Positions 477 through 38,675 of a stretch of DNA of 64,000 nucleotides are shown here, piece after piece. The first letter of the stretch is position 1, and each line of letters starts with the position of its first letter. Origin of the DNA: Roseomonas indoligenes (GTDB lineage: Bacteria; Pseudomonadota; Alphaproteobacteria; Acetobacterales; Acetobacteraceae); the NCBI RefSeq assembly GCF_017813365.1, contig NZ_JAGIZA010000008.1, positions 124,001-188,000 of the forward strand. Reading direction: 5' to 3'. The position numbers and the translations under genes were made by a program. Under the pieces are notes generated by a model that was given only the letters and a program-made list of their open reading frames with translations, made no database searches and was not told where the DNA came from.

Positions 477-510
477 CCGGCCAGCCCACCCAGGTTCCCG
501 AACGCCCCTG

Positions 511-1200
511 ATGGATCGCCCGAACATGACCTTCCTCTCCGCCCGCTCCCTGCGCCACGACACGCCCTGGTCCGCCCTGCCGCCCCGCCCGGCTGCCGGG
601 ACCCGCGAGGCGGAGGCGGTCTCGATCGGCCTGCTGCGGCACCACACGAAGAACGCGCTGCAGCGCATCCTCTCCGAGGTCTCCAAGGTGCGGGGCCTGG
701 AGGAGACGCGGGAGGGGCAGAGGCTGATGCTGGAGGTGGAGCGGCGCGTCATGCTCAGCGCCGCCCTCTCCAACGCCCTTTTCGGCTTCACCCATGCACC
801 GGGTGGCATGGAGGACCGGCTGCGCTCCGTCTGCGAGGCGACGCTGGAACTGATGGGCGACCCCGACCAGATCCTGCGCCTGGCCGTGACCGTGGAGGGA
901 GACTGCCCCGTTCCGCTACGCCCGACCGCCCTGCGGGCCGCGCACGAGATGGTGGGGAACGCCGTGAAGCACGGCATGCACGCCCGCCTGGTCGGCCATA
1001 TCCAGGTCTGCCTCTCCTCCGCGGAGGGCTGGACGCGGCTGGTGGTGGAGGATGACGGCTGGGGCTACTGCGGCGCGCGCGACGGCGGGGAAGGCCTGGA
1101 CCTGCTCCGCGCTCTGGCCGGGCTGCACGAGGGTACGACGACCCTGGAGCGCATCCAGGACGGCACGCGCGCCACGATGGACCTGCCGCACGGGCCGTAG
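511..1200 (+). CDS. Sensor histidine kinase, HisKA_2/HWE-like, no N-terminal sensor
   Basis: The protein has 229 residues. The phosphoacceptor helix is LLRHHTKNALQRI near residue 50, resembling the HisKA_2/HWE dimerisation box with H, K and N conserved. It is followed by an HATPase_c domain with an N-box (AHEMVGNAVKHG) and a G-box (VEDDGWGY). No transmembrane or PAS sensor segment precedes the H-box, so it is probably cytosolic and gets its signal from a partner or its short N-terminus. The ATG at 511 is chosen because it follows the 448-476 promoter; the same frame stays open upstream to 172, but that stretch is antisense to DUF6502. No cognate response regulator is adjacent. Confidence 0.8.
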   Translation: MDRPNMTFLSARSLRHDTPWSALPPRPAAGTREAEAVSIGLLRHHTKNALQRILSEVSKVRGLEETREGQRLMLEVERRVMLSAALSNALFGFTHAPGGMEDRLRSVCEATLELMGDPDQILRLAVTVEGDCPVPLRPTALRAAHEMVGNAVKHGMHARLVGHIQVCLSSAEGWTRLVVEDDGWGYCGARDGGEGLDLLRALAGLHEGTTTLERIQDGTRATMDLPHGP

Positions 1201-1234
1201 GACCTTGCGCTCGGGTCATCCTGCCCTGCGCTTG

Positions 1235-1476
1235 TTCTGATCGGTCCCGAGCCAAGGGCCTGAGGCCCTTGGATCCCCGTCTGGCTGCCGCCCGCGCCGT
1301 CCTGACATGGGATTTCGGCGTGAGGGGATTGATCCTGCCCTTGCAGTCGCCTGAGGTCATCGACCTCAGGCGCACCGTCAGGCGAGCCAAACCAACTCGA
1401 CGAAAAAGATGATGGATTCGAAGCACTGCTTCGAACGGGTCCGGGGAGAGGAAGAATTCCTTCGTCCTCTCCCCGG
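1235..1476 (+). repeat. Dispersed structured repeat, copy A
   Basis: This non-coding element lies directly downstream of the histidine kinase stop. It contains a TTCTGATCGGTCC lead, then hairpin P1 (1252-1272, CCAAGGGCCT/AGGCCCTTGG), a linker of about 75 nt, and P2 (1348-1358 with 1362-1372, CGCCTGAGGTC/GACCTCAGGCG). P3 (1417-1425 with 1427-1435, TTCGAAGCA/TGCTTCGAA) and P4 (1441-1452 with 1465-1476, CCGGGGAGAGGA/TCCTCTCCCCGG) follow. Copy B at 4701-4936 is its near-identical inverted partner and lacks P3. P4 also lies 8 nt past the ydfG stop and could end that transcript from the other strand. No ORF in it looks genuine. Confidence 0.85.
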
Positions 1477-1483
1477 GGCAGCG

Positions 1484-2239
1484 TCACGCCCCCGGCTTGT
1501 GCACCCGCAGCGGCCCGAAGCTCTGCGCGACCGGCATTACCTGTAGCGTGTTGATGTTCACGCGGGCAGGGCGGGAGGCGACCCAGTGGACGGCATCCGC
1601 GATGTCCTCCGGCGTCAGCGCCTCCGCGCCCTGGTAGACGGCCGCTGCCTTGGAGTCGTCGCCGTGGAAGCGGACGTTGCTGAACTCCGTGCCGCCGACG
1701 AGGCCGGGCTCGATATCCGTCACGCGCACGGGCGTGCCGAAGAGGTCGGCGCGAAGGTTGAGGGAGAAGTGGCGCACGAAGGCCTTGGTGGCGCCGTAGA
1801 CATTGCCGCCGGGATAGGGCCACTCCCCGGCGGTGGAGCCGATGTTGACGATGTGGCCGCGCCCGCGCTCCACCATGCCCGGCAGCACCGCGTGGGTGAG
1901 GTACATCAGCCCCTTCACGTTGGTGTCCACCATGGCGTCCCAGTCGTCGAGATCTGCCTTCTGCGCGGGCTGTAGGCCGAGGGCGAGGCCGGCATTGTTC
2001 ACCAGCACGTCCACGGCGGACCATTCGGTGGGGAGGCCGGCAATCGCCCTCTCCACCGCTGTGCGCTCGCGCACGTCGAGCGCCAGGGGCAGCACCGTCT
2101 CCGCGCCCAGCTCGTCCCGCAGCGCCTCCAGCCGCTCCGCGCGCCGGCCGGCGGCGATGATTCGCGCGCCGTCCCCCGCAAAGCGGCGGGCAATGGCCAG
2201 GCCGAAGCCCGCGGTCGCGCCGGTGACGAGGACGATCAT
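1484..2239 (-). CDS. ydfG: NADP-dependent 3-hydroxy acid dehydrogenase, YdfG-like SDR
   Basis: This 251-residue classical short-chain dehydrogenase matches E. coli YdfG closely along its full length, including the N-terminus (MIVLVTGATAGFG) and the TDIEPGLVGGTEFSNVRF stretch. The YdfG family reduces 3-hydroxy acids, malonic semialdehyde and serine with NADP. Visible motifs are the TGATAGFG cofactor loop, NNAG near residue 88, the catalytic Ser in NIGSTAG and Tyr-x3-Lys in YGATK. Its ATG overlaps the stop of the upstream CoxL-like gene by 4 nt, so the two are probably co-translated. The link between them is not obvious biochemically. The substrate remains inferred from homology. Confidence 0.9.
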   Translation of the reverse strand: MIVLVTGATAGFGLAIARRFAGDGARIIAAGRRAERLEALRDELGAETVLPLALDVRERTAVERAIAGLPTEWSAVDVLVNNAGLALGLQPAQKADLDDWDAMVDTNVKGLMYLTHAVLPGMVERGRGHIVNIGSTAGEWPYPGGNVYGATKAFVRHFSLNLRADLFGTPVRVTDIEPGLVGGTEFSNVRFHGDDSKAAAVYQGAEALTPEDIADAVHWVASRPARVNINTLQVMPVAQSFGPLRVHKPGA

Positions 2240-4569
2240 GCCGCGCCCTCGTGCAGGATGGACCAGAGCTTCGCGGGGGTGGCGGGCATGTCCACATGCG
2301 TCACGCCCCGCTCCGCCAGCGCGTCCACGATGGCGTTCATGACGGAGGGGAGGGAGCCCGCGCAGCCCGCTTCGCCGCAGCCCTTGGCGCCCAGCGCGTT
2401 GGTGCGCGCGGGCACGGGATGGCTGGCGAAGCCGAAGAAGGGCGCGTGCGCCGCGCGCGGCAGGCCGTAATCCATGTAGGAGCCGGAGAGGAGCTGCCCG
2501 TCCTCGCTATAGGCCGTCTGCTCCGTCAGGCACTGGCCGATGCCCTGCACGATGCCGCCATGCGCCTGGCCCGCGACGAGCATGGGGTTCACCAGCACGC
2601 CGAAGTCGTTGACGGTGGTGTAGCGCACCACCTCCGCCTCGCCCGTGTCCTCGTCGATCTCCACCTCGGCGATGTGGCAGCCGTTCGGGAAGGCGCTGTC
2701 CTCGTACTGGTCGGTGGTGGAGACATCCAGGCTCTCGCCCATGCCGCGCGCCGCCGTGGCCAGTTCCATGATGCCGATGCCGCGATCCGTGCCGGCGATG
2801 GCGAAGCGGCCACCATTCTCGGACGAGGGCTCGAACTCGATATCCTCCGCCGAGGCCTCCAGCACCTGCCCCGCGAGCTGGCGACCCTTCTCGATCACCT
2901 GCGCGCTGGCGGTGGAGAGCGCCTGGCCGCTGGCCATGATGGAGCGCGACCCGCCCGTGCCGCCACCGGCGATCAGCAGGTCGCTGTCGCCCTGCTGGAG
3001 GCGGATGCGGTCAAAGGGGATGCCGAGGCGGTCCACCAGCACCTGCGCGAAGGGCGAGGCATGGCCCTGCCCGTAGTCCAGCGTGCCCGTCAGAATCGTC
3101 ACGCCGCCGTCCTCGTCGAAGCGGATGCCGCCCATCTCCTTGTTCGGCGGCGCCGTGACCTCGAGGTAGTGGCCGATGCCGATGCCGCGCAGCTTGCCGC
3201 GGCGCCGGCTCTCCGCGCGGCGGGCGGGGAAGTTGTCCCAGTCCGCCGCGGCCAGCGCCTCCTCCAGGATCGCAGGGAAGTCGCCGCTGTCGTAATGCAT
3301 GCCGGACGGCGCCTTGTAGGGGATCTGGTCGGCGCGGATGTGGTTGCGGCGGCGCAGCTCCACCCGGTCGATCCCCATCTCCCGCGCGGCCGTGTCGACC
3401 AGCCGTTCCATGTAGTAGTTGCCCTCCGGCCGCCCGGCGCCGCGATAGGCGCCGACGGGGGTGGTGTTGGTGAGCATGCAGCGGGTGGAAACCTCCACCA
3501 GCGGCGTGCGGTACACGCTGATCACGTTCTTCACCGTGTTCATCGTGGCCGGCAGCGTGGTGGAGTTGCTGAGATAGGCGCCAAGATTGGCGAAGCCCGT
3601 CACGCGCAGCGCGAGGAAGTGTCCCTCCGCGTCCAGCGCCAGCGACACCTCAAAGTCATGGTCGCGGCCGTGGCTGTCCGACAGGAAGCTCTCGCTGCGG
3701 GAATCCGTCCACTTCACCGGCCGCCCGAGCATCTTCGCCGCGTGCAGCAGGGCCGGGTACTCGGGATAGACGCTGGACTTCATGCCGAAGGAGCCGCCGA
3801 CATTCCCCGTCAGCACGCGCAGCCCCTCGTTCTCCACATGCATGACCTTGGCGATGTTGCCGCGCATGCCGAACACGCCTTGGCTGCCCATCCGCAGCAC
3901 GTAGCGCCCGTCCTCGACCGTCGCGAGCGCGGAGCGCGGCTCCATCGGCGAGACGACGACGCGGCTGTTGCGGATCGCCATCCGCGTGACATGCGCGGCC
4001 CCCGCGAAGGCCGCCTCCACCGCCGCCGCATCGCCGTAGTGGAAGTCCGAGACCAGGTTGCCCGGCACGTCGTCATAGAGGATCGGCGCGCCCTCGGCCG
4101 CGGCGTCCCGCGCCTCGGTCACGGCGGGCAGGGGATCGATGTCCAGCACCACGGCCTCGGCCGCGTCCCGCGCGTCCTTCGCCGTCTCCGCCACCACCAT
4201 CGCCACGGGGTCGCCGACGAAGCGCACCTTGTCCGTGGTCAGCACGGGCTGGGTCGGGGTGCGGGCGGGCGAGCCATCGCGGTTCTTCTGGGTGATGCCG
4301 ACCGGCATGGGGCCAATTCCCGCCGCCTCCAGGTCGCGTCCGGTGATCACGGCCAGCACGCCCGGCATCGCCAGGGCCTCCGCGACGTCGATCCCGCGGA
4401 TCACCCCGTGGGCATAAGGGCTCCGAACCATCACCGCATGGGCCTGGCCGGGCAGGGAGAGGTCGTCGCTGTAGCGACCCTGGCCCCGCAGCAGCACCGG
4501 GTCCTCCTTGCGGGAAACGGGCTGGCCGATGCCGAACTTCAGCCGCGAGGGATCGATCGGAGCGTTCAT
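2236..4569 (-). CDS. Xanthine dehydrogenase family molybdopterin-binding subunit (CoxL form II-like)
   Basis: The 777-residue protein has the aldehyde oxidase/xanthine dehydrogenase large-subunit architecture: an a/b hammerhead domain to about residue 140, then the molybdopterin-binding domain. Its AYRGAGR motif marks form II CoxL-like proteins; true CO dehydrogenase (form I) has AYRCSFR. The GGGTGGSRS pterin loop and the catalytic Glu in GAKGCGEAG are intact. These enzymes hydroxylate aromatic or aldehyde substrates, and this substrate is unknown. The usual medium (FAD) and small (2Fe-2S) subunit genes are absent nearby. The start at 4569 is preferred over 4590 because AGGA lies about 8 nt upstream. 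It is followed by ydfG with a 4-nt overlap, and both lie between repeat copies A and B. Confidence 0.85.
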   Translation of the reverse strand: MNAPIDPSRLKFGIGQPVSRKEDPVLLRGQGRYSDDLSLPGQAHAVMVRSPYAHGVIRGIDVAEALAMPGVLAVITGRDLEAAGIGPMPVGITQKNRDGSPARTPTQPVLTTDKVRFVGDPVAMVVAETAKDARDAAEAVVLDIDPLPAVTEARDAAAEGAPILYDDVPGNLVSDFHYGDAAAVEAAFAGAAHVTRMAIRNSRVVVSPMEPRSALATVEDGRYVLRMGSQGVFGMRGNIAKVMHVENEGLRVLTGNVGGSFGMKSSVYPEYPALLHAAKMLGRPVKWTDSRSESFLSDSHGRDHDFEVSLALDAEGHFLALRVTGFANLGAYLSNSTTLPATMNTVKNVISVYRTPLVEVSTRCMLTNTTPVGAYRGAGRPEGNYYMERLVDTAAREMGIDRVELRRRNHIRADQIPYKAPSGMHYDSGDFPAILEEALAAADWDNFPARRAESRRRGKLRGIGIGHYLEVTAPPNKEMGGIRFDEDGGVTILTGTLDYGQGHASPFAQVLVDRLGIPFDRIRLQQGDSDLLIAGGGTGGSRSIMASGQALSTASAQVIEKGRQLAGQVLEASAEDIEFEPSSENGGRFAIAGTDRGIGIMELATAARGMGESLDVSTTDQYEDSAFPNGCHIAEVEIDEDTGEAEVVRYTTVNDFGVLVNPMLVAGQAHGGIVQGIGQCLTEQTAYSEDGQLLSGSYMDYGLPRAAHAPFFGFASHPVPARTNALGAKGCGEAGCAGSLPSVMNAIVDALAERGVTHVDMPATPAKLWSILHEGAA

Positions 4570-4700
4570 GCGGGCATCCTGTCGGGGCATGGGGGCCAGG
4601 AAGCCCCGGCCTATCCGCGCAAGTTGGGCCGGGTTGCTGCGACGCGGAAGCCCCCCTCGCGCTCATTCGATCAGGGGCCGTCCTTCGGTGGCGGTCTGTC

Positions 4701-4936
4701 CCGGGGAGAGGAAGAAAGAATTCTTCCTCTCCCCGGACGCCTCACCATCATCTTTTTCTTCGAGTTGGTTTGGCTCGGCTGGCGGTGCGCCTCGGGTCTA
4801 TGACCCGAGGCGACTGCAAGGGCAGAATCAATCCCCTCACGCCGAAACCCCATGTCAGGACGCCACGGCGGCAGCCAGACGGGGTTCCAAGGGCCTCAGG
4901 CCCTTGGCGGGGGTTCCAGGGGGCGGAGCCCCTTGG
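4701..4936 (-). repeat. Dispersed structured repeat, copy B
   Basis: This copy is the inverted partner of copy A, lying just after the minus-strand glycosyltransferase stop at 4954. Read on the minus strand it has P0 (4936-4916, a GC-rich hairpin), P1 (4907-4887), a linker nearly identical to that of A, P2 (4812-4802 with 4798-4788, CGCCTCGGGTC/GACCCGAGGCG) and P4 (4736-4721 with 4716-4701, a perfect 16-bp stem). P2 differs from copy A at two adjacent positions, and both changes are compensated on the other arm. P3 is missing. This element fills most of the 384-nt gap 4570-4953; the rest (4570-4700) holds only a small GGGGC/GCCCC hairpin near 4591. Confidence 0.85.
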
Positions 4937-4953
4937 GGGCCACCCGCACCGCG

Positions 4954-6108
4954 CTAATCCCCGAGCGGCACTGGATTGCGCCCGCGGAACTCACGGCTGG
5001 TCAGAAGGGCGGTGCGGGCCTCGTGCAGCGGGCGGCCGACCAGGCCGGTGCCCACCTCGGATTCCGGCACGCGGTCCAGCAGCATCCTGAAGAGGAAGGC
5101 CACGTCTTCCGGCGTGGCCGGGCGGTTGCGGTCCATCCAGACCGCGCCTTTCTCCTGCAGCAGGCGGGCCAGGCGCTTCTGGCGGTGCTCCGTCTGCATG
5201 GCCAGGGATTCGGCCATGATGCGGGAAACGGCGCCTTCCACCCCTTCGGCCAGGTGGTGCTCCGGGCCTTCCCGCCACCCCGCGCCCTCGAAGCCCATCT
5301 CGCGGAACACGCCCTCGTCGAAGGAGGAGCCCTTCTCGCCGATGTAGCGGGCGAAGCAGACCTCGGTCATCACGCGGGCGATGCCGAGCGCGTCGCAGCC
5401 CAGGGTCTTCGCCGTGTCCTGGGAGGAGAAGGGGCGGGAGACGGGCAGGGTCTCCATCCAGCGGAAGATCGCGAGGTGGTCGCGATAGGCGTAGTCCGCC
5501 CCGTCCAGGATGCGGTCATAGGGCACGAGGAACTCGCAGAGCCGGCGCCAGGCGTCCCGCTTCAGCCCGAAGCCCCAGTTGTGCTGCATCCGCACCAGCC
5601 AGACATAGGGGCCGGTGGGGGCGATGTGGTGGTCGCCATAGGCGGCGAAGTAGCCGATGCGGGCGTCGCGCTCGGACAGAGCGCGCAGTTCCCCCATCAT
5701 GCGCAGGTAGTCGGGGCCCAGTTCCAGGTCGTCCTCGAAGAAATAGGCGAGGTCGGCACCCAGGGCCTCGAAGGCCAGCACCTCGCCGCGGCGGATATTG
5801 GCGGCGATGCCGAGATTGTGGGGCGCGGCGGCGACGTGGCCGCGCGGGAAATGGCGGCGGAAGGCGGCGATGGAGGCCTCGACCTGGGAATCCTCCGCGT
5901 AGCGCAGGCCGGAGCGCGGGGAGACGGCGCCGTCCTGCAGGAGGAAGACCCGGCGCGGATCCAGCGCCGCGCCGCGCTGGCGGAGGAGAGAGGCGCAGAC
6001 GCGGTCCAGGTAGTCCGGCCGGTTGAAGGCGAAGAGGACCACCGGCACGTCCAGCACGGCGGGCGCGGGGCGGGCGTGCAGCGCGGGAAGAGGGGGCGCG
6101 TCGCTCAA
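4954..6108 (-). CDS. GT-A fold glycosyltransferase, GNT-I-like
   Basis: The protein has 384 residues. Residues 20-45 read VVLFAFNRPDYLDRVCASLL, the opening strand and nucleotide-sugar region of GT-A enzymes. YFFEDDLELGPDYL near residue 125 supplies the acidic EDD metal-binding motif seen in GNT-I-like families, and PHNLGIAANIRRG lies between. The last 50 residues (LLDRVPESEVGTG) look like the short domain attached to some bacterial glycosyltransferases. It probably transfers a sugar to a surface glycan or protein; donor and acceptor are unknown. It starts with TTG at 6108, supported by GGAG 8 nt upstream and no nearby alternative. It has no signal peptide or TM segment. Repeat B follows its stop. 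Confidence 0.75.
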   Translation of the reverse strand: MSDAPPLPALHARPAPAVLDVPVVLFAFNRPDYLDRVCASLLRQRGAALDPRRVFLLQDGAVSPRSGLRYAEDSQVEASIAAFRRHFPRGHVAAAPHNLGIAANIRRGEVLAFEALGADLAYFFEDDLELGPDYLRMMGELRALSERDARIGYFAAYGDHHIAPTGPYVWLVRMQHNWGFGLKRDAWRRLCEFLVPYDRILDGADYAYRDHLAIFRWMETLPVSRPFSSQDTAKTLGCDALGIARVMTEVCFARYIGEKGSSFDEGVFREMGFEGAGWREGPEHHLAEGVEGAVSRIMAESLAMQTEHRQKRLARLLQEKGAVWMDRNRPATPEDVAFLFRMLLDRVPESEVGTGLVGRPLHEARTALLTSREFRGRNPVPLGD

Positions 6109-12813: not shown

Positions 12814-12840
12814 GGGCAGGTCTCCATCCAGAAATGAAAA

Positions 12841-12866
12841 GGGCCGGAGGGATACCCCTCCGGCCC
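12841..12866. terminator. Bidirectional rho-independent terminator
   Basis: An 11-bp GC-rich stem, GGGCCGGAGGG (12841-12851) with CCCTCCGGCCC (12856-12866), closes a 4-nt loop. It is flanked by AAAA on the left and TTT on the right. It can end the response-regulator transcript on the plus strand. It can also end the small ORF transcript on the minus strand, where the T run is longer. Confidence 0.85.
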
Positions 12867-12869
12867 TTT

Positions 12870-12944
12870 CTACTTCCTGGGCTTCGCCGGCGCCGGCAGG
12901 GCCCCGATCGCCCGCAGGGCTGGGATCAGGATCGGTCGGACCAT
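12870..12944 (-). CDS. Microprotein or leader peptide, 24 residues
   Basis: A short ORF runs from an ATG at 12944 to TAG at 12870 and reads MVRPILIPALRAIGALPAPA followed by KPRK. An AGGGGAAG run lies upstream of the ATG at about ribosome-binding distance, and a strong terminator begins 4 nt after the stop. The peptide is amphipathic and basic at its end. I do not recognise a family. The tight ORF-terminator arrangement argues for a real small transcript. The alternative is a small RNA that contains an incidental ORF. Repeat copy C lies directly upstream. Confidence 0.5.
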   Translation of the reverse strand: MVRPILIPALRAIGALPAPAKPRK

Positions 12945-13012
12945 CGGTGCTTCCCCTCTCGACTGGTGGGCGACTCAACGAGGGATAGGAGGGACGGTTG
13001 CCCCCAAGGGAG

Positions 13013-13160
13013 GGGAGAAGGAATTCCCTCTCCCATGGACCCCACCCCTCATCTTTTTCTTGGCTTTCGGCTGATCCCGCTGACGGTGCGCCTTGGCTCG
13101 GGACAAATGCTCCGCGTTTTCCCGAGGGGCCGGGGGGGGACCGGGGCCCCTTGGGGCACC
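13013..13160 (-). repeat. Dispersed structured repeat, degenerate copy C
   Basis: This copy has the same orientation as copy B. It keeps a P4-like stem with a central GGAATTCC (arms 13013-13018 and 13029-13034), the CATCTTTTTCTT tract (13050-13061; at 4749 in copy B) and GACGGTGCGCC (13082-13092). P2 and P1 are eroded, and a GC-rich P0-like block CCGGGGCCCCTTGGGGC ends it near 13141-13157. Together with the terminator at 12841 and the ORF at 12870 it occupies most of the 401-nt gap 12814-13214. Confidence 0.6.
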
Positions 13161-38598: not shown

Positions 38599-38675
38599 TT
38601 CTGATCGGTCCGGAGCCAGGGGACGCTGCCCCCTGGAACCCCCGCCAAGGGCCTGAGGCCCTTGGATTCCCCGAC
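38599..38675 (+). repeat. Dispersed structured repeat, partial copy D
   Basis: This copy follows the haloperoxidase-like stop by 17 nt in sense orientation. It has the TTCTGATCGGTCC lead as in A, hairpin P0 (38616-38636, CCAGGGG/CCCCTGG), the AACCCCCG spacer as in B, and P1 (38645-38665), identical to A. The sequence then diverges, so P2-P4 are absent. It therefore combines features of A and B. Confidence 0.75.

Follow-up and report, generated by a model that had tools for sequence, protein, structure and literature searches.

The repeat at positions 1235–1476 of the window, by which we mean the whole 64,000-nucleotide stretch of Roseomonas indoligenes contig NZ_JAGIZA010000008.1 that was analysed, is very probably one copy of a high-copy, intergenic, mosaic palindromic repeat of Roseomonas, similar in kind to the BIMEs and RIMEs of other bacteria. 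Our computations showed a family of copies assembled from recurrent hairpin modules, their position at gene ends, the turnover of their interiors and their clustering around the presumed replication origin. We assign a probability of roughly 0.55 to the explanation as a whole, in which a mosaic repeat is reshaped by gene conversion and acts as gene-end DNA, or on both strands, near the origin.

The initial annotation had recognised two copies in the window, and both are real: copy A at 1252–1476 and copy B at 4701–4936, inverted. The window holds two further relatives beyond these, and its features are as follows.

1235–1251, plus strand: left-end motif of copy A (TTCTGATCGGTCCCGAG), a TGTTCTGATCGGTCCGG-like end common to many copies, not to all
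1252–1272, no strand: hairpin P1 of copy A (pair table)
1348–1372, no strand: hairpin P2 of copy A, state TGAGGTC/GACCTCA (pair table and alignment)
1417–1435, no strand: optional hairpin P3 of copy A, TTCGAAG CACTG CTTCGAA, not in copy B
1441–1476, no strand: hairpin P4 of copy A, 16 pairs
4701–4736, no strand: hairpin P4 of copy B (copy B on the minus strand)
4788–4812, no strand: hairpin P2 of copy B, state TCGGGTC/GACCCGA (copy B on the minus strand)
4887–4907, no strand: hairpin P1 of copy B (copy B on the minus strand)
4916–4936, no strand: hairpin P0 of copy B, not in copy A (copy B on the minus strand)
13004–13111, minus strand: third, divergent copy (P2-linker-P4 part), found with covariance model R1 at 55.1 bits and also in an inverted-repeat search
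38616–38671, plus strand: half element with P0 and P1 only, present in two repeat/similarity listings

Complementarity between the inverted-repeat arms shared by copies A and B is 90% (124 nt), 94% (47 nt) and 93% (43 nt). The layout claimed for the pair holds for P1, the linker, P2 and P4, but a module-for-module match fails, with P3 confined to copy A and P0 to copy B. The reported two-pair change in P2, from CGCCTGAGGTC/GACCTCAGGCG in copy A to CGCCTCGGGTC/GACCCGAGGCG in copy B, is exact: the pairs are adjacent and both changes are compensated. The fold energies of 1235–1484 (z = −5.67) and of 4690–4945 on the minus strand (z = −7.27) are below those of all 200 dinucleotide shuffles. Copy A lies between converging genes, with a borderline match to histidine-kinase ATPases on the left (508–1200, plus strand; 27.2 bits where 26.4 are needed) and a short-chain dehydrogenase on the right (1484–2239, minus strand). 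Copy B lies between two minus-strand genes, at 4954–6108 (a 384-residue product with no family match) and at 2236–4590 (a molybdopterin-binding dehydrogenase subunit, whose relatives at 83–93% identity bear Roseomonas/Pararoseomonas names, e.g. R. populi, R. rosea and R. harenae). Mechanically called ORFs overlap both copies, and in other copies the pyrimidine-tract frame, inspected by eye, is interrupted by stops. Inspection by eye also showed a textbook hairpin that ends in a T-rich tail (GGGCCGGAGGGATACCCCTCCGGCCCTTTCT) at 12836–12875, some 130 nt away from the third copy; the genome therefore seems to use ordinary terminators too.

The unit is about 220 bases long and carries several near-perfect hairpins in the consensus order TGTTCTGATCGGTCCGG end, P0, P1, a linker of about 75 nt (75 nt in copy A), P2, a linker bearing RAAAAGATGATGG, optional P3, P4 and ACAGACCGNCAGCGAAGGATCAG end; neither end motif is universal, and extra palindromes such as AAACGCGAAGCGTTT occur in some copies. 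Compensated pairs beyond the P2 change between copies A and B are also present. P2 exists in four perfectly paired states (TGAGGTC, TCGGGTC, TCGGCTC and TCCGGTC), the arms of P3 vary in a paired fashion between genomes (copies of G007 and G011) around a constant CACTG loop, and P0 and P1 also vary pairwise. Two-sided change was found in 13 of 41 pairs in an alignment of 37 loci (without L015, L021, L024, L027, L036, L038–L041, L046, L048 and all loci from L095 on). A second alignment took 52 of the 100 loci with a P2–P4 stretch, which was not found in L096, L126 and L153 and whose start was misplaced in part of the 100 (stretches of 158 nt or more). Here 98.0% of cells are paired against 94.6% in shuffles, two-sided change affects 34 cells against 6.2, and the covariation score is 0.110 against 0.049 when shuffled and at most 0.038 when slid. 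The distinct pairs with two-sided change (4) and the pair types (18) are not above the shuffle level, being reached by 70 and 136 of 500 shuffles, respectively. Such an excess of cells without an excess of distinct pairs would fit few events and many copyings. Since P2 has decayed to a partly unpaired form in the orthologue of copy A in the near relative G013, and L030 has also decayed, not every copy is constrained.

Further genomic copies, for which the initial annotation had called, proved abundant, with at least 127 loci in the R. indoligenes genome and at least 139 in G013. These counts come from covariance model R1, built for the P2-linker-P4 part from 52 copies, and are lower bounds because the best 150 of 6087 candidates (R. 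indoligenes) and the best 150 of 6390 (G013) were scored; they omit opposite-strand duplicates and weak matches (below about 40 and about 52 bits, respectively), and two of the omitted G013 matches sit inside the origin-centred domain described below. BLAST of copy A against its own genome gave 40 places, whole or partial, at 69–100% identity (the best 40 of 177 candidates). Across 30 genomes including our own (E 0.001, at most 26 candidates scored per genome), matches occur in 12, all from the same genus (12 of 15), and in none of the 15 from other genera. Full-length or near-full-length copies are present in eight of the 15 genus genomes (G000, G001, G002, G006, G007, G011 and G013, all element-rich, and G008). 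The best match in G005, G009, G010 and G014 is a 30–45 nt piece of P2 joined to other sequence, and G003, G004 and G012 have no match at E 0.001, so the element is dispensable. The P2-like hairpin without the rest of the element in those four genomes (L038–L041) adjoins, in the first three, other large palindromes, e.g. CCGGGGAGCC..GGCTCCCCGG; other mosaics thus have the P2 module in common with the Roseomonas element. Within Acetobacteraceae, 39 of 150 genomes (own and G007 included, at most five candidates scored per genome) have matches; outside the genus, those among the matches listed cover only the P0–P1 double hairpin (query 1–64) or, in G131, the P4 side (query 159–229). The double hairpin is therefore found without the rest of the element across other genera of the family, as it is at 38616–38671 of the window. 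Variants with a different left half, either a GGTTGGACCTAAGGTCCAACC palindrome or no P1 (L167:131–433 and L167:11268–11506), match many places in G006, as sub-families amplified on their own. The claim that no family could be named for the repeat has held up: nothing in Rfam reached threshold for the window, and the sole match of seven loci at E up to 1 scored 24.8 bits against a cut-off of 145.1. A search of open-licence PMC text found no description of this repeat family.

Copies sit at the ends of genes. By codon-score gene calls, 103 copies, which are mostly the most A-like ones and include orthologues, so that not all are independent, fall between 58 convergent, 44 tandem and one divergent gene pairs. 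A script of the same kind applied to 20 sampled 20-kb stretches of G013 returned 47 convergent, 224 tandem and 47 divergent pairs as background (the excess of convergent pairs has a Fisher p of 8e-16 and the deficit of divergent ones a p of 2e-5, with the same dependence among the 103). On the left side the first hairpin follows the facing stop codon at a median of 20 nt, with 66 of 79 distances no longer than 40 nt; on the right side the median is 23 nt, and 64 of 81 distances fall inside the same limit. In tandem pairs the stop side is the closer one in 39 of 44 copies, with medians of 14 nt to the stop codon and 103 nt to the downstream gene, and in a number of copies the TGA stop of the neighbouring gene is the TGA inside the end motif CTGATC. 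Extragenic, in high copy, behind genes and rarely between divergent pairs, the element has the placement of REPs, which lie mostly between unidirectional and convergent genes according to the excerpt of the REP survey available to us (PMC3733652). We dropped integron attC sites as a candidate, as the copies are kilobases apart and do not follow successive cassettes. At L168:15530–15880, an element stands directly after a hairpin and T-run, and its G013 counterpart lacks P2 and has a P3-type hairpin.

Comparison of orthologous sites points to insertion, long persistence and internal replacement. The site between ybaB and recR is filled in G000, G013 and G006 and empty in 8 of 15 genomes (G007, G002, G009, G008, G005, G010, G011 and G001), where the two genes are about 25–50 nt apart, the exact gap varying with the start codon; in G014, G004, G003 and G012 a different sequence occupies this place. 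The C-terminus of YbaB is GFKLPF in 15 of 15 genomes, and the element therefore entered right behind the stop codon with the protein unaltered. No target duplication is evident at this site between species that are far apart. At the site of copy B the element is present in G013 and G006 and absent from G002, G010, G005, G008 and G009, and a longer insert lies there in the R. rosea locus. R. indoligenes and G013 are the two closest species compared; in colinear stretches, all five R. indoligenes sites that were checked carry an element in G013 too, and the modules at shared sites differ by gain or loss of P3 or P1, by a missing P2 in one case and by switched P2 states. Fourteen shared-site pairs were listed, of which two with a single matching flank were left out of the linker comparison (as were six of the 103 loci: L036, L046, L096, L097, L103 and L104) and ten entered the best-match test. 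The flanks at shared sites are 79–98% identical. The first linker has a mean identity of 0.714 between orthologues and 0.741 between unrelated copies, and the second is slightly higher between orthologues (0.829 against 0.779). At only 3 of 10 shared sites does the orthologue rank first in similarity among the copies of the other genome, and in one pair it is the most distant of them. Identical linkers occur at different sites (L012/L013, L026/L027 and L122/L123), and the sites of L013 and L132 (0.992) are common to sister species, so in these cases it is the interior, not the site, that is new. The identical tract starts variably in or near P0 and stops soon after ACAGACC or a variant of it. 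Judged from these sequences, the overwriting of interiors is likely to be ectopic gene conversion, with re-insertion at the same sites as the less likely alternative.

The family is concentrated around the presumed origin. The 5.47-Mb contig C1 of G013, which we treated as a circle, has parS-like sites at 1.6566 and 1.6602 Mb, beside mnmE. As a control, the reversed parS pattern gave 0 sites. parS and mnmE stand in for oriC because the GC skew, computed from 20 samples, was too noisy for locating the origin; the tRNA counts of these samples were uninformative. Within 1.0 Mb of parS lie 124 of the 139 loci, where 50.9 would be expected, and taken together the locus positions have their circular mean at 1.658 Mb, on parS. 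Judged by eye, the domain has sharp edges, one near −1.0 Mb and one near +0.9 Mb. An exhaustive scan of 20 evenly spaced 20-kb stretches of G013 found four loci in the five stretches inside the domain (two of which had no copy), two weak loci in the edge stretch at 1.40 Mb and none in the 14 others (p = 0.005, or 0.04 with the edge stretch counted outside). Between about 1.0 and 1.4 Mb of C1 a 0.4-Mb stretch of the domain has three loci only, and may be a later insertion. In R. indoligenes the parS contig C7 holds 10 of 127 loci, with 2.9 expected, and C24, C11 and C61 are denser than C7. The share of the parS contig among the matches listed is 8 of 26 in G007, 6 of 26 in G002, 6 of 24 in G006, 6 of 11 in G011 and 3 of 10 in G001 (with fewer matches counted than scored in the last three), and the enrichment in these five drafts and our own genome gives a combined p of 7e-18. 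The evidence for origin clustering thus consists of one near-complete rich genome, G013, plus contig enrichment in drafts. Because distal G013 DNA has convergent pairs (38 in 15 distal stretches, 9 in the five domain stretches), is colinear and about 90% identical at 2.80 and 3.08 Mb with the element-poor R. indoligenes contig C1 (0.8 loci per 100 kb), and encodes MinD above cut-off as well as MsbA-like and CCA-adding-enzyme-like proteins below curated cut-offs, neither missing targets nor a recent arrival of the distal DNA explains the clustering in the parts tested. A restriction to the core genome, as described for the abundant GTAG families of two other species in the excerpted survey (PMC3733652), could be part of the cause.

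The covariation that first drew attention to the repeat admits several readings. The initial annotation took the compensated change in P2 to mean that the folded nucleic acid is maintained. As independent evidence for a conserved RNA this does not survive, because whole cores are copied between loci and one compensated event is therefore counted many times, while distinct pairs stay at shuffle level and P2 has decayed in the G013 orthologue of copy A. A selected RNA strand should also show more G-U than A-C intermediates in all helices. On the plus strand the G-U to A-C cells number 6:26 in P1, 7:11 in P2 and 43:19 in P4, but a single position supplies 17 of the 26 A-C cells of P1 and another 19 of the 43 G-U cells of P4, and copies shifted by one base inflate both P4 counts; when each combination of position and type is counted once, the ratios are 5:7, 5:6 and 13:9. 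No strand is consistently indicated by these wobbles and mismatches, with P1 and P4 leaning opposite ways, nor by the orientation of tandem copies relative to the genes (21 against 23). It is a set of palindromic modules that is maintained, be it as RNA or as DNA. A new structured RNA family, non-coding or cis-regulatory, would account for the strong folding of both copies, the compensated pairs, the conserved RAAAAGATGATGG linker and the G-U excess in P4 alone. It fits poorly with the even tandem orientation, the convergent bias, the near-perfect DNA palindromes, covariation inflated through copying and the lack of an Rfam match, and we consider this reading weak and the proposal improbable; we rejected a single RNA gene or riboswitch as the main reading on account of the copy number, the occurrence in both orientations, the gene-end position and the lack of a consistent strand signal. 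Template switching is known to correct quasi-palindromes, and the covariation could likewise stem from mutation, with one palindrome arm corrected on the other and the result spread by copying. The near-perfect stems with few intermediates and the switched P2 states at the shared sites L020/L033, L023/L132 and L029/L129 agree with this, yet the same data are also compatible with selection, and the stop-codon position and origin clustering would go unexplained; we hold it to be unlikely. GGAG is the tag of some REPs, and it stands within 6 nt of P0 in 15 of 61 copies and of P1 in 12 of 94. This, presence or absence at orthologous sites, near-identical copies at different sites and imperfect TIR-like ends, CGGTCCG..CCAGGG, that some but not all copies carry (on the left CGGTCCGG..CCAGGG, on the right CGGTCYGTGGCCAGGG reversed, by eye) might point to a selfish MITE- or REP-like mobile element, whose hairpins would be transposase substrates kept only for moving. 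Yet no clear target duplication was seen, several sites are common to species while the interior is new, and the clustering around parS would lack an explanation. A search for the Y1 (HUH) transposase class (PF01797, Y1_Tnp, E 0.001) was negative in 15 of 15 genus genomes and positive in 5 of 14 control genomes, and the tags GTAG and CGTC occur within 6 nt of a stem foot just three times overall (GTAG at P2 in 2 of 100 copies, CGTC at P4 in 1 of 100, neither at P0 in 61 or P1 in 94). On these grounds we rejected an element derived from REP/RAYT or IS200/IS605 and regard the broader mobile-element reading as doubtful. With no Y1 transposase found and GTAG/CGTC nearly absent from the stem feet, the element lacks two marks of classical REPs and is filed as a BIME/RIME-like mosaic repeat and not as a REP.

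Two further alternatives concern the position of the copies. A bidirectional terminator or protector of mRNA 3′ ends between converging genes, and nothing else, would suit the median distance of 20–23 nt from the stop codon and hairpins usable on both strands, and the REP survey, in its excerpted form, likewise places REPs mainly downstream of genes (PMC3733652). However, a T-rich tail (4 of 8) follows none of the stems (P0 in 0 of 61 copies, P1 in 0 of 94, P2 and P4 in 0 of 100 each), and a scan of 1100–5100 found 0 terminator-like sites with 1.1 expected in shuffles, so that a canonical intrinsic terminator (G+C hairpin plus U-run) was rejected for the stems examined. One copy moreover splits ybaB from recR, whose separation in eight relatives is a few tens of bases, the L168 element from 15530 already lies behind a hairpin and T-run (by eye), and the sampled convergent pairs beyond the origin domain have no element. 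We consider this role on its own unlikely. The clustering, for its part, might be a by-product, either of more conversion or insertion at high gene dosage or of old sites surviving only in slow-changing DNA. Gene dosage peaks near the origin, and the REP families of two other species are confined to core regions, as the survey excerpt has it (PMC3733652). Against a by-product stand domain edges that look sharp by eye rather than graded and the 14 distal 20-kb samples with 0 copies, although two comparable ones are about 90% identical and colinear. This is the alternative that we take most seriously, while rating it short of probable.

For the function and the cause of the clustering we infer the following from the pattern as a whole. 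The comparisons show an element composed of exchangeable hairpin modules (P0, P1, P2, the optional P3 and others, and P4); in the preferred reading, a conversion-maintained mosaic repeat, ectopic gene conversion would overwrite interiors and homogenise copies at fixed sites. The hairpins would be kept for action on both strands at gene 3′ ends, and the element probably acts as DNA or as both-strand hairpins at the gene ends of the origin-proximal domain. The palindromes may serve there as double-strand sites for a topological or nucleoid factor, in a gyrase-like use resembling that of E. coli BIME-2, for which the available part of PMC6379681 describes cleavage by DNA gyrase, an Ori–Ter gradient and a surplus in the Ori region. 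By this analogy, a topological role of the putative double-strand sites is a tentative proposal at best. Hairpins at the 3′ ends of converging mRNAs could provide a secondary role, and we doubt that it is the main one. More speculatively still, the repeats would work in cis as putative architecture sites, marking out about 2 Mb of chromosome centred on the origin. Its more than 100 gene-end palindromes, homogenised through conversion, would then serve a nucleoid or topological protein in organising the transcribed, early-replicating DNA of this region or in relaxing it. If so, they would be the origin-side counterpart of Ter-specific sites.

Bacterial MITEs are short, repeated and hairpin-rich and show presence or absence at sites, and the Roseomonas element resembles them in all of these respects; unlike them, it has no target duplication that we could see and its ends are only TIR-like. 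With the BIMEs and REPs of E. coli, Pseudomonas and Stenotrophomonas, as far as the available excerpts describe them, it shares the form of a high-copy intergenic mosaic of palindromes behind genes or between convergent ones (PMC6379681, PMC3733652). REPs are 20–40 bp long, whereas the Roseomonas unit of about 220 bp has several different hairpins, almost no GTAG or CGTC, no Y1 transposase found in the genus and an origin-centred distribution. CGTC repeats are given as missing in Acetobacteraceae in the same excerpt (PMC3733652). The RIME, Sm and ABC repeats of Rhizobium and Sinorhizobium are likewise alphaproteobacterial intergenic repeats with conserved sequence and structure and, in the portion of the source at hand, a function described as unknown (PMC2573895). 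They belong to another taxonomic group, the likeness to RIME is one of description and not of sequence, and that portion does not mention origin clustering for them (PMC2573895). The matS sites of the E. coli Ter macrodomain are also short sites concentrated in one macrodomain, again from partial text (PMC6379681), but they are bound by a known protein, MatP, at the terminus, whereas the Roseomonas domain surrounds the origin.

Although intergenic mosaics of palindromes were described decades ago, their role has never been settled. In the present family the search for the usual transposase was negative, hairpin modules are acquired, lost and overwritten at fixed gene-end sites, and the bias to the origin is strong. 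The genus offers both rich and empty species, and if the bias holds in more complete genomes, the choice between selfish, transcript-end and chromosome-structure explanations would become directly testable. The crowding of copies around the origin suggests a testable link between these repeats and the layout of the Roseomonas chromosome.
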